Below the pieces are notes generated by a model. That model did no database searches. It saw nothing but the letters and a program-made list of their open reading frames with translations, and was not told the DNA's origin. The translations under genes were made by a program, and so were the position numbers. A stretch of 64,000 nucleotides of DNA from Dehalococcoidia bacterium (lineage in GTDB: Bacteria; Chloroflexota; Dehalococcoidia; Tepidiformales; Tepidiformaceae): positions 1-64,000 of the forward strand of contig JADYYG010000026.1 in assembly GCA_020853755.1 (NCBI GenBank). The letters are read 5' to 3'. Positions 2,128 through 7,737 of this stretch are shown here, piece after piece. How positions within the stretch are numbered: position 1 is the first letter of the stretch; each line of letters begins with the position of its first letter.

Positions 2128-3174
2128 CTAGTGTGAACCGCCCGCCGCCGCTGCTTTCTCACGTTCGCGGGCGCGGTCCTGGCGCTTTGCCTCGAGTTCT
2201 TCGTGCTTGACCCACGCAGCCACCACGAAGCCAACCGCTGCCAGGAAGAGGATGTCGCCAATCACCCACATCGTGATTCCGGCGAGTTGCTGGTCGGCCA
2301 GCGGAGTAGGGCCCCAGGTTCGCTGGGTCGTCGCGTAATGGCGATAGAGCACCCGGTCAGTCCCGTAGATGGATAGCGCCAGGAATGAGTTCTGCGGCAT
2401 CTGGAGGAAGACGTAGAGCATCCGGATGGGGTGCGCCATGCGCCACGGCGTCGGGTCCAGCCCGATCACCTGCCACCAGAACATCAGCGCCACCGTGACG
2501 TACAGCACGTGTTCGAGCCAGTGGAGCCACTCGTGTTCGAGCGCCGCGTTGAAGAGCGGTGAGTAGTGCGACCCCCACATCGTCCCCGCGAACAGTAGCC
2601 AGGCCACGACCGGGAACGTCAACGCGCGAACCACGCGGCTGTGCAGGATCGGCAGGATGACGTTTCGCCGTGTCTCGGGGCTGACTGCCCGCATCAGTAA
2701 CGTAATGGGCGTGCCGAGGAGCAGCAGGGGCGCGGCCACCATCATGAGCAGGATGTGCTGCCACATATGGACGGTGAACAGCACTCCGTCATAGCTGAAT
2801 GGCGGCGAAGTGACGGCGAACGCCATCACCCCGATGCCCGAAAGAAAGAACGCCAGCCGCTTCTTTGGCCACGGCGCAGCGGGGTGTTCGCGTGAGACGC
2901 TGCGCGCTGTTGCGACGTACCACCAGGTGGCCCCGCCCGCGAAGAGGATGAAAACGGGGTCGAACTCCCACCGCGTGAGGAGCGCGGAGAGCGATGGTTT
3001 CGGCGCATCCGTGCCGTGCGCGAGGGCTGCCGAAGGGGCCAGAGCGAGGAAGAACGCGGCAAGACCGGCCAACGCTCCCCGGCGGCTGCCGGGAGAAAGC
3101 CAACGGAATCGGGTCACGGCGACAAGTCTCGCACGGAAGACAGGCGACCGCGATGGATGGGAAAGACGGCCCAT
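2128..3174 (-). CDS. ctaG: Cytochrome c oxidase assembly factor CtaG (caa3_CtaG family)
   Basis: Multi-TM protein with FTVHMWQHILLMMVAAPLLLLGTPITLLMRA and PQNSFLALSIY; lies inside the oxidase cluster. Confidence 0.85.
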   Translation of the reverse strand: MGRLSHPSRSPVFRARLVAVTRFRWLSPGSRRGALAGLAAFFLALAPSAALAHGTDAPKPSLSALLTRWEFDPVFILFAGGATWWYVATARSVSREHPAAPWPKKRLAFFLSGIGVMAFAVTSPPFSYDGVLFTVHMWQHILLMMVAAPLLLLGTPITLLMRAVSPETRRNVILPILHSRVVRALTFPVVAWLLFAGTMWGSHYSPLFNAALEHEWLHWLEHVLYVTVALMFWWQVIGLDPTPWRMAHPIRMLYVFLQMPQNSFLALSIYGTDRVLYRHYATTQRTWGPTPLADQQLAGITMWVIGDILFLAAVGFVVAAWVKHEELEAKRQDRAREREKAAAAGGSH

Positions 3175-3348: not shown

Positions 3349-4155
3349 ATGCGTTCACCAGTCGTAATGCGGCACAGCCGCCGGATTCTCGTCTTCCTCG
3401 CCGTTGCCATGCTGGCGATTGCGATGCTCAGCGGCGCCTCAGCGCAGACCGTGCAGCCACCGGGCATCACAGATGAAGCCCGCAAGATGCACGACCTCTA
3501 CCTCTTCGTGACGGCCATTGCCATCGTCGTCTTCATCATCGTCGAAGGTGGCATCATCTGGGCCATCTTCCGCTACCGGAAGCGAGGCGACGGCCTTCCT
3601 ACCCAGACGCACGGCAGCACCCTGCTCGAAATCATCTGGACGGCCATCCCGGTGCTCATCACCACCTCGGTCTTCACTTATTCGTTCATCGTGCTGCGCG
3701 AAGTCGAAAACAAAGCCGACCCGAACGACCTGACCGTCCACGTCCAGGGCTTCCAGTTCCAGTGGGGCTTCACGTACGACCTCAATGACCTCGGCACGAA
3801 GACCGCCGACCGGAACGCAACCGGCCAGATCCAGATCCTTGGCACGGCGGCCCAGGAGCCTACGCTCGTCATCCCGGCTGATGAACCGGTCGAGTTCGCG
3901 CTCTTCTCGAATGACGTTATCCATTCGTTCTACGTGCGCGATTTCCTCTACAAGCTCGACGTAGTCCCGGGGCGGGACAACCGCTTCGTCGTGACCGCCC
4001 GCGAGATCGGCGAGTTCCACGCCCAGTGCGCCGAACTCTGCGGCCTCGACCACTCCTTGATGCGCTTCAAGCTCAAGGTTGTCTCGCGCGCAGACTTCGA
4101 CAAGTGGGTCTCCGAGCAGAAACCGACGCAGCCGTCGGTCCAGAAAACACAATAA
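3349..4155 (+). CDS. coxB: Cytochrome c oxidase subunit II (CuA)
   Basis: Signal/TM segment; GFQFQWGF; CuA motif HAQCAELCGLDHSLMRFKLKV; no CxxCH heme c motif in the ORF. Confidence 0.93.
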   Translation: MRSPVVMRHSRRILVFLAVAMLAIAMLSGASAQTVQPPGITDEARKMHDLYLFVTAIAIVVFIIVEGGIIWAIFRYRKRGDGLPTQTHGSTLLEIIWTAIPVLITTSVFTYSFIVLREVENKADPNDLTVHVQGFQFQWGFTYDLNDLGTKTADRNATGQIQILGTAAQEPTLVIPADEPVEFALFSNDVIHSFYVRDFLYKLDVVPGRDNRFVVTAREIGEFHAQCAELCGLDHSLMRFKLKVVSRADFDKWVSEQKPTQPSVQKTQ

Positions 4156-4230: not shown

Positions 4231-5841
<1,611 letters not shown>

Positions 5842-5883: not shown

Positions 5884-6483
5884 ATGACCGCACACGCCGG
5901 CACCCAGCAGAAACAGGAACTGAGCAATGGAATGCTCGGATTCATCCTGTTCCTCGCCTCTGAGGTGATGTTCTTCGGCGGCCTGTTCGCCGCCTACTTC
6001 ATCGCCCGGGCGGATTCGCCGCAGTGGCCGCCCGCGTTGAGCGCCGCCCAGGAAGCCCGCGGCGTCGAACTCCACCTCGAGTTCGCGCTGCCATTCATCG
6101 CGACCTGCGTCCTCGTGCTCAGTTCGGTCACGATGCAACTCGGGGTCTGGGCCATCCAGAAGGGCGACCGGTCAGCGCTCATCCGCTGGCTGTTTATCTC
6201 CATCGTGCTGGGCCTCGCCTTCCTGACGGCCCAGATGTACGACTACAGCCAGCTGCCGTTTAAGTCTGGCGACACTATCTACGGGACGACGTTCTACACG
6301 TTGACCGGGTTCCATGGCGCACACGTGGCCGGGGGCATCATCTTCATGATGGTCATACTCGTGCGCTCGTTCGGAGGGCAGTTCTCAGCACAGCGGCACG
6401 AAGGCGTGGAGGCGTGTTCCTTCTACTGGCACTTCGTCGATGTGATCTGGCTGGCCCTCTTCACTACCCTCTACATCGTATAA
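5884..6483 (+). CDS. ctaE: Cytochrome c oxidase subunit III
   Basis: LGFILFLASEVMFFGGLFAAYF, GFHGAHVAGGIIFM, and YWHFVDVIWLALFTTLYIV. Confidence 0.95.
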   Translation: MTAHAGTQQKQELSNGMLGFILFLASEVMFFGGLFAAYFIARADSPQWPPALSAAQEARGVELHLEFALPFIATCVLVLSSVTMQLGVWAIQKGDRSALIRWLFISIVLGLAFLTAQMYDYSQLPFKSGDTIYGTTFYTLTGFHGAHVAGGIIFMMVILVRSFGGQFSAQRHEGVEACSFYWHFVDVIWLALFTTLYIV

Positions 6484-6518: not shown

Positions 6519-7655
6519 ATGGATCATCCAGTAAGCGAACACGGCGAACAGCACGACATCCACCTTCCAGATCCGAGTATCTGGCCCCTGGTCGTAGGGT
6601 TTGCGGCCTTCGTGTTGGGCGCAGCCCTCATCTTCTACTCGCGAGACCGCAGCAATGACTGGGCTGGCCCACTTCTCGGCGCGGCAGCGGCAATCACGCT
6701 GTTCGCCGCCGGCGGCTGGGCGTTCGAAGACGGCCGGATGAAGAAGAAGGCCGAAGAAGGCGACCATAGCAAGCCGCGCAACGCGCGCTACACGCAGGTC
6801 GTCACCTTCGCCATCCCCGAAGGCGGCTACGTCGCTTCTCGCCAGGACGGCGGCATCATCAGCCAGCTCGAATCCCGCGACAGTACTCTGCGAGACCTCG
6901 ACGGATTTCAGGATCTGCGCGTCATCGTTTCTCCGGCTGAAGCCGGGCCTTCTCAAGTCCTCGTCGAAACGACGTGGGCTGACCGCGAAGGCCTCGCTAC
7001 CTACGAGCAGACCCGCAAGACGATGCTCGAAATCCTCTCGCAGACGCCTGATCAGGTGGTCCCTGGCTCGGTGCAAGTCTTCGACATGGAAGTCGTCCGC
7101 GACACCAAGGACACCTCGTTCACCTTCGGGCTCGGCCCGATGGTCGCGACGTTCGGCGCGCTCATCGTCGGCGGCTTCATGGTCGGCGCGGGCCTGAACA
7201 TGTTCGGCAGCGACAAGGCTGTGGCAGGCGGCGGCGAAGGCCCGACCGGTCCCGCTGCGCCCGCTGGCAACGTCATCACGGCCAAGGGCACGAAGTTCAC
7301 CACTGGGACCACGATTACGGCGCCCCCGAACACGAAGATCACGCTTTTCTTCGACAACCAGGACACGTCGCCGCCGCACAACGTCCAGATCTTCGCCGGG
7401 TCCCAGGCGTCGGGTGGCCTCCTCAAGGGCTGCACGGCCGGTTGCGAAGGCGACGAGGTCTCTCTGCCGCTGAAGGGCGGTCCGGAGAAGGTCGAGTTCA
7501 CCTTCACCACACCAGCTGTCGGTACCTATGCGTTCGACTGCGCCGCGCACCCAACGCAGATGACCGGCAAGCTCGTCATCCAGGACGGCGCAGCCGTTCC
7601 CGGCGGCGGTGGGGCAGCGGCTCCCGCAGCAAGCGCGACAACTCCGGCCAAGTAG
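6519..7655 (+). CDS. Fusion protein: CoxIV-like two-TM segment + ABM-like domain + TM + C-terminal cupredoxin
   Basis: N-terminal IWPLVVGFAAFVLGAALIFYS..WAGPLLGAAAAITLFAAGGWAFED; middle YTQVVTFAIPEGGYVASRQDGGIISQLESRDSTLRDLDGFQDLRVI..LVETTWADREGL; C-terminal cupredoxin with PPHNVQIF and FDCAAHPTQMTGKL. Confidence 0.75.
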   Translation: MDHPVSEHGEQHDIHLPDPSIWPLVVGFAAFVLGAALIFYSRDRSNDWAGPLLGAAAAITLFAAGGWAFEDGRMKKKAEEGDHSKPRNARYTQVVTFAIPEGGYVASRQDGGIISQLESRDSTLRDLDGFQDLRVIVSPAEAGPSQVLVETTWADREGLATYEQTRKTMLEILSQTPDQVVPGSVQVFDMEVVRDTKDTSFTFGLGPMVATFGALIVGGFMVGAGLNMFGSDKAVAGGGEGPTGPAAPAGNVITAKGTKFTTGTTITAPPNTKITLFFDNQDTSPPHNVQIFAGSQASGGLLKGCTAGCEGDEVSLPLKGGPEKVEFTFTTPAVGTYAFDCAAHPTQMTGKLVIQDGAAVPGGGGAAAPAASATTPAK

Positions 7656-7682
7656 CTCGCAAGAGTTCTCGCTCACGAGAAG

Positions 7683-7710
7683 AAGGCCCCCGCCAATTGG
7701 CGGGGGCCTT
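7683..7710. terminator. Bidirectional intrinsic terminator between convergent genes
   Basis: aaggcccccgccaattggcgggggcctt, perfect stem, followed by T-rich tcgtgttttg. Confidence 0.8.
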
Positions 7711-7737
7711 CGTGTTTTGCCCTGAGTTTGCTACGCC

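Follow-up and report, generated by a model that had tools for sequence, protein, structure and literature searches.

The window, a stretch of 64,000 nucleotides of contig JADYYG010000026.1 from a member of the Dehalococcoidia, contains the operon of a heme-copper oxidase whose subunits are of the A-type according to Pfam and related profile searches; Pfam places ctaA, ctaB and the divergently oriented ctaG upstream of it. The operon and its neighbour comprise the following features.

2128..3174, minus strand: ctaG (caa3 assembly factor), the divergent neighbour; Pfam Caa3_CtaG 5.6e-72
3349..4155, plus strand: coxB, start estimated; CuA motif, without heme c or cupredoxin extension
4231..5841, plus strand: coxA, 536 aa; YSHPAVYI motif, without the C-terminal TM1-2 tail of the sister families
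5884..6483, plus strand: coxC, 199 aa; five-TM subunit III without TM1-2
6519..7655, plus strand: fusion gene TM1-TM2 / ABM-fold / TM3 / cupredoxin, 378 aa (Pfam, structure search, AF2, family alignment)
6519..6770, plus strand: N-terminal segment, residues 1-84; HLPDPSIWPL motif and two TM helices, homologous to CoxIII TM1-2
6774..7118, plus strand: ABM (dimeric alpha/beta barrel type, ferredoxin-like) domain, residues 86-200, predicted to be cytoplasmic (AF2, Foldseek, Pfam)
7131..7208, plus strand: third TM helix, residues 205-230 (AF2 helix, hydropathy)
7260..7586, plus strand: cupredoxin, residues 248-356; ligands H287 (7377), C341 (7539), H344 (7548) and M348 (7560)
7682..7711, plus strand: terminator-like hairpin at the end of the operon; 13-bp, GC-rich, strong

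The reading frame of the fusion gene opens with an ATG at 6519 and closes with a stop codon at 7653-7655. Given the gap of ~35 bp between the coxC stop and this start, together with the hairpin downstream, we regard it as the last gene of coxB-coxA-coxC-x, as had been proposed in the first-pass annotation, which was made by a model from the letters of the DNA and a list of open reading frames. That annotation also read CoxB as a protein with a CuA site and no CxxCH heme c, and both points hold, since the CuA motif (CAELCGLDHSLM) lies at 4027-4062 and CxxCH is absent from CoxB. The coxC product matches Pfam COX3 (1e-40) in an alignment that begins at profile position 74, and it scores 1.2e-48 against aa3_CtaE_Actin, under that model's cutoff.

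A match to the fusion protein was found in 35 of the 38 genomes of the GTDB family to which the source belongs, including all 22 of good quality, and nearly all of these matches possess the full architecture. Such agreement is not due to chance and speaks against an error of annotation or assembly, which we therefore reject; in this family the fusion is a fixed trait.

Domain composition of the fusion protein

The AF2 model of the fusion protein comprises helices at residues 22-44 and 49-80, a beta-alpha-beta-beta-alpha-beta unit at 90-192, a further helix at 205-230 and the strands of a cupredoxin at 252-354. This AF2/Foldseek parsing agrees with the domain order first read from the sequence, including the additional TM segment ahead of the cupredoxin. 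The N-terminal helices are modelled with a pLDDT of about 74, and at a pTM of 0.39 for the full protein the arrangement of the domains is uncertain. Pfam matches to Cation_efflux, TctB and DUF4381 were set aside as TM-composition noise.

The N-terminus had been described as CoxIV-like; its two TM segments were recovered, but its identity with subunit IV was not. As a single sequence, residues 8-84 resemble the N-terminal part (residues 3-72) of subunit III from R. sphaeroides (1m56_C, 2.5e-4), and a profile of the segment, CoxA tails included, retrieves 1m56_C at 8e-8, then mitochondrial COX3 and, lower, the C-terminal part of subunit I of aa3-600 (6kob) and the region in Thermus caa3 where I and III are joined (2yev). 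The Pfam search gave no match of the fusion protein to PF12270 (CtaF) at E<=1, while two more distant relatives reach this profile below its cutoff. Given the missing PF12270 match and the homology to subunit III TM1-2, CoxIV family membership was rejected, and the segment is best described as CoxIII TM1-2, CtaF-like. In sister families within the class, CoxA is 620-669 aa long, as against 536 aa here, and its final ~70 residues are this same segment; the two versions are recognisably related (hhalign 98.3%; blastp 38-43% to CoxA residues ~552-663). None of the examined loci of the source genome's GTDB family has such a tail on CoxA. Hence, the gene that carries TM1-2 differs from one sister lineage to another.

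A comparable division is known from M. smegmatis, in which CtaE and CtaF jointly make up subunit III, the TM1-2 subunit being separate (PMC8361435). The protein described here resembles CtaF of the actinobacterial aa3 oxidase in that TM1-TM2 is encoded apart from a five-TM, CtaE-like CoxC, but its helices run on into the ABM domain, a third helix and the cupredoxin. The subunit I extension of Bacillus aa3-600 (6kob) and the fused subunits I+III of Thermus caa3 (2yev) contain the homologous segment as well, whereas in the source family a protein other than CoxA carries it. Not every member of the family may dock at the subunit III position, as the HLPDPSxWP motif is eroded in two loci (L005 and L059), where the fusion gene follows ctaB and not coxC. 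In another Chloroflexota family, proteins with a weak PF12270 match join TM1-2 to a soluble domain of another kind (L157:7646-8440 and L159:6333-7136), and coxABC were not found within the fetched region around these genes. One further candidate for CoxIII (L025) was rejected, being a different protein composed of the TM1-2 segment and another soluble domain.

The middle region, which had been called ABM-like, is well supported as such. Modelled alone, it reaches a mean pLDDT of 90 (AF2) with the order beta-alpha-beta-beta-alpha-beta, and Foldseek returns 1tz0 as the best match (4e-7), then IsdI/IsdG from 2e-6, with many ABM entries among the hits. At the sequence level the evidence is weak but recurs: a profile of the domain matches 1tz0 at 1.2e-3, and Pfam ABM (PF03992) is reached at E<=1 by 21 of 33 relatives (best E 1.4e-4), the source copy scoring 14.3 bits and thus below the gathering cutoff of 23.1. 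The catalytic residues of IsdG-type enzymes are Asn-Trp-His. Throughout the 33 sequences the column of IsdI Trp66 holds Tyr or Phe, and the His76 position holds Ile, Leu, Val, Phe or Met but no His, which makes IsdG-type catalysis unlikely. The domain is akin to the IsdG-IsdI heme-degrading monooxygenases in fold and, weakly, in profile, but differs from them in lacking the catalytic Trp/His and in being membrane-tethered inside an oxidase subunit. Since Q8, G44, G58, E65, T66 and W68 (domain numbering) are invariant, it is under constraint, and it is probably a dimerisation or docking module and not an active monooxygenase.

The C-terminal domain matches Pfam Copper-bind above the cutoff (1.1e-5), and its nearest cupredoxin is auracyanin A (2aan), both by sequence (2.5e-7) and by fold (6e-7). 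His287-Cys341-His344-Met348 are invariant in 28 of 28 aligned family members, so that the type-1 H-C-H-M set noticed at the outset is confirmed; a tandem second cupredoxin is present in about ten of 35 members. Membrane-tethered auracyanin B (AuraB) has been proposed to serve respiration in Chloroflexus (PMC3150298). Unlike the auracyanins of Chloroflexus/Roseiflexus, which are not fused to an oxidase and have ACIII as their partner, the cupredoxin of the fusion protein would have a cytochrome bc complex as its partner.

Seven Lys/Arg residues follow TM2, and stand-alone homologs begin with the ABM domain, with no signal peptide ahead of it. Subunit III starts on the cytoplasmic side. From these three points we infer that the ABM domain is cytoplasmic and the cupredoxin lies on the outer face, i.e., on the side of CuA.

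Cupredoxins, heme c on CoxB and the bc complex

The idea of a copper donor was put as the question of whether heme c gives way to the copper domain, which was addressed in 80 CoxB regions of the class, 78 of them with the CuA motif. CoxB carries heme c in one of 27 cases in genomes with the ABM protein (source family included) and in 42 of 51 in genomes without it (Fisher 4.6e-12), with 26 and nine plain CoxB proteins, respectively; counted by family, the ratio of plain to heme c is 6/0 versus 4/20 (p 3.5e-4, with f19, which has one heme-c case among several plain ones, scored as plain), and since the sample includes the few loci that prompted the test and the genomes are related, this family-level value is the safer figure for a comparison that is correlational and not a controlled phylogenetic test. 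Heme c is absent from all ten CoxB proteins sampled from the source genome's own family. Among the nine plain-CoxB exceptions without the ABM protein, five have an anchored cupredoxin beside ctaG and one has a TM-cupredoxin after coxA, and a cupredoxin was not found nearby in three plain-CoxB clusters (G474, G424 and G454). The genome G531 is an apparent exception to the reciprocity, having a heme-c CoxB and the ABM protein on different contigs; a plain partner was not located. The first-pass annotation had suggested that the cupredoxin could replace cytochrome c at CuA, and the comparison lends this suggestion indirect support.

The ABM domain occurs in 62 of 394 genomes of the class. Outside the source family, it is mostly part of a separate ~340-aa ABM-3TM-cupredoxin gene, usually convergent with ctaG. 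Hence, the pairing of ABM domain and cupredoxin is wider than the fusion, and the initial impression that an ABM domain has no obvious precedent in this setting does not hold for the pairing, as a separate cox-linked gene of this kind exists in several related families. A full-text literature search found no description of the fusion protein, and the oxidase is not discussed in the main text of the Tepidiforma paper. In the family f134, five clusters with plain CoxB (L241-L244 and L248) have a membrane-anchored 3TM-cupredoxin gene without ABM beside or convergent with ctaG, and in a member of another class of Chloroflexota (L160) a protein with TM1-2 twice, one TM and a cupredoxin is encoded directly after coxC. 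Thus, the ABM domain is an optional part and the cupredoxin the constant one. The L160 cluster combines a tandem CoxIII TM1-2 / TM-cupredoxin gene with a second cupredoxin on CoxB (L160:3283-4455 and L160:6973-8148), and a cupredoxin directly on CoxB was found in two other Chloroflexota, L158 and L160.

Cytochromes c of the source genome (G000) were counted by Pfam searches. Only two proteins with cytochrome-c domains (Pfam cytochrome-c families) were found, in a draft that is 92.6% complete, so that a soluble cytochrome c may have been missed. One of them is the product of the gene that closes a cluster of cytochrome b, b C-terminal half and Rieske genes.

L113:7556-9409 (G000:C50), minus strand: bc complex c subunit; TM, heme c, five LysM and a C-terminal cupredoxin, family-conserved

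Its cupredoxin ligands are conserved as His, Cys and His in 28 of 28 covering sequences and as Met in 27, and the cupredoxin profile matches the set of c subunits at E 1e-6 to 1e-3. With both a heme c and a copper domain built into the bc complex, electron transfer may do without a soluble carrier. The LysM repeats suggest contact with peptidoglycan. The other cytochrome-c-domain protein is a CopC-CopD-FixH-like-cytochrome c fusion (L112:7061-9238, G000:C9). The genome also encodes a second heme-copper oxidase, coxB-coxA-coxC, whose coxA has an N-terminal extension (L155:6241-9743, G000:C27); a cupredoxin subunit was not found in that cluster.

Proposed role of the fusion protein

We consider it likely that the fusion protein is both a structural and an electron-entry subunit of the A-type (aa3) oxidase, bearing a tethered blue-copper donor to CuA. 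Its first two helices, placed by their homology, would fill the position of subunit III TM1-TM2, which coxC and coxA do not supply, and would anchor the protein to the oxidase complex. The ABM domain would then lie on the cytoplasmic side, probably as a dimerisation or docking part, and TM3 would lead back outside to the type-1 cupredoxin, whose ligands and fold are evident from sequence and model, on a flexible Gly/Pro/Ala linker. The cupredoxin would take electrons from the cytochrome bc complex and hand them to the CuA of CoxB, a task that falls elsewhere to soluble cytochrome c or, in caa3 oxidases, to the heme c domain. More tentatively, and with the odds rather against it, electrons might pass from the cupredoxin of the bc complex to that of the oxidase in a III-IV supercomplex that works without mobile cytochrome c, with the cytoplasmic ABM domain, kept at the proton-entry face by the subunit III helices, dimerising and gating or holding the supercomplex.

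The cupredoxin could instead be a copper-delivery or assembly factor for CuA/CuB, tethered for biogenesis. The cluster includes the assembly genes ctaA, ctaB and ctaG, and in related families the ABM/3TM-cupredoxin gene adjoins ctaG, by name a copper-insertion factor. We nevertheless hold this to be improbable, as the domain has the full type-1 His-Cys-His-Met set, its closest fold, auracyanin, is an electron carrier, and its alternation with the heme c of CoxB and the tandem cupredoxins of some genomes fit a relay better. Less probable still is a structural subunit with an auxiliary cupredoxin engaged in a side reaction or in docking, the cupredoxin of the bc complex reducing CuA directly: since the bc c subunit has its own copper domain, a second one is not strictly required, but none of the four ligands varies among 28 members, about ten members have duplicated the domain, and CoxB is devoid of heme c where the cupredoxin of the fusion protein is present.

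A further alternative concerns the ABM domain only and is compatible with the electron-donor reading, namely that the domain is an active IsdG-like heme-handling enzyme or monooxygenase that couples the assembly of the oxidase to the supply or turnover of heme. IsdI/IsdG are among its nearest folds, and the gene follows ctaB instead of coxC in L005, L059, L067 and L092. With the IsdG-type Trp/His missing from 33 sequences, and with otherwise equivalent proteins devoid of the domain in f134 and L160, we give this idea equally little credence.

The proposed donor arrangement has counterparts elsewhere. In caa3 oxidases (CoxB-cytochrome c), as would be the case here, the donor domain is covalently part of the oxidase and reaches CuA; here, however, the metal is copper instead of heme, it is borne on another subunit, and CoxB has no heme c domain. 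Halocyanin and sulfocyanin, the latter a constituent of SoxM, are established examples of blue-copper proteins that donate electrons to oxidases (PMC3062577). In Natronomonas the ba3 oxidase receives electrons from halocyanin, and some haloarchaea have halocyanin joined to helix IIa, so that the general idea of combining an oxidase helix with a blue-copper donor is already known (PMC3128077). By analogy, both the haloarchaeal fusion and ours may be seen as a small oxidase membrane segment combined with a blue-copper donor, but the former belongs to a B-type archaeal oxidase and has the single helix IIa and no ABM domain, whereas the source oxidase is A-type and the helices are CoxIII-like.

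The TM1-2 segment is a movable one, found on CoxIII, on CoxI and as the separate CtaF, and its fusion to a copper donor gives it a further home. If the family is Tepidiformaceae, cultured species exist for testing (PMC10284905). We herein describe a clear bacterial case in which oxidases appear to have replaced their tethered heme c by a blue-copper domain that is likewise tethered; since this heme-to-copper swap can be traced across one class, the question of what allows CuA to accept a different electron donor can now be tested.
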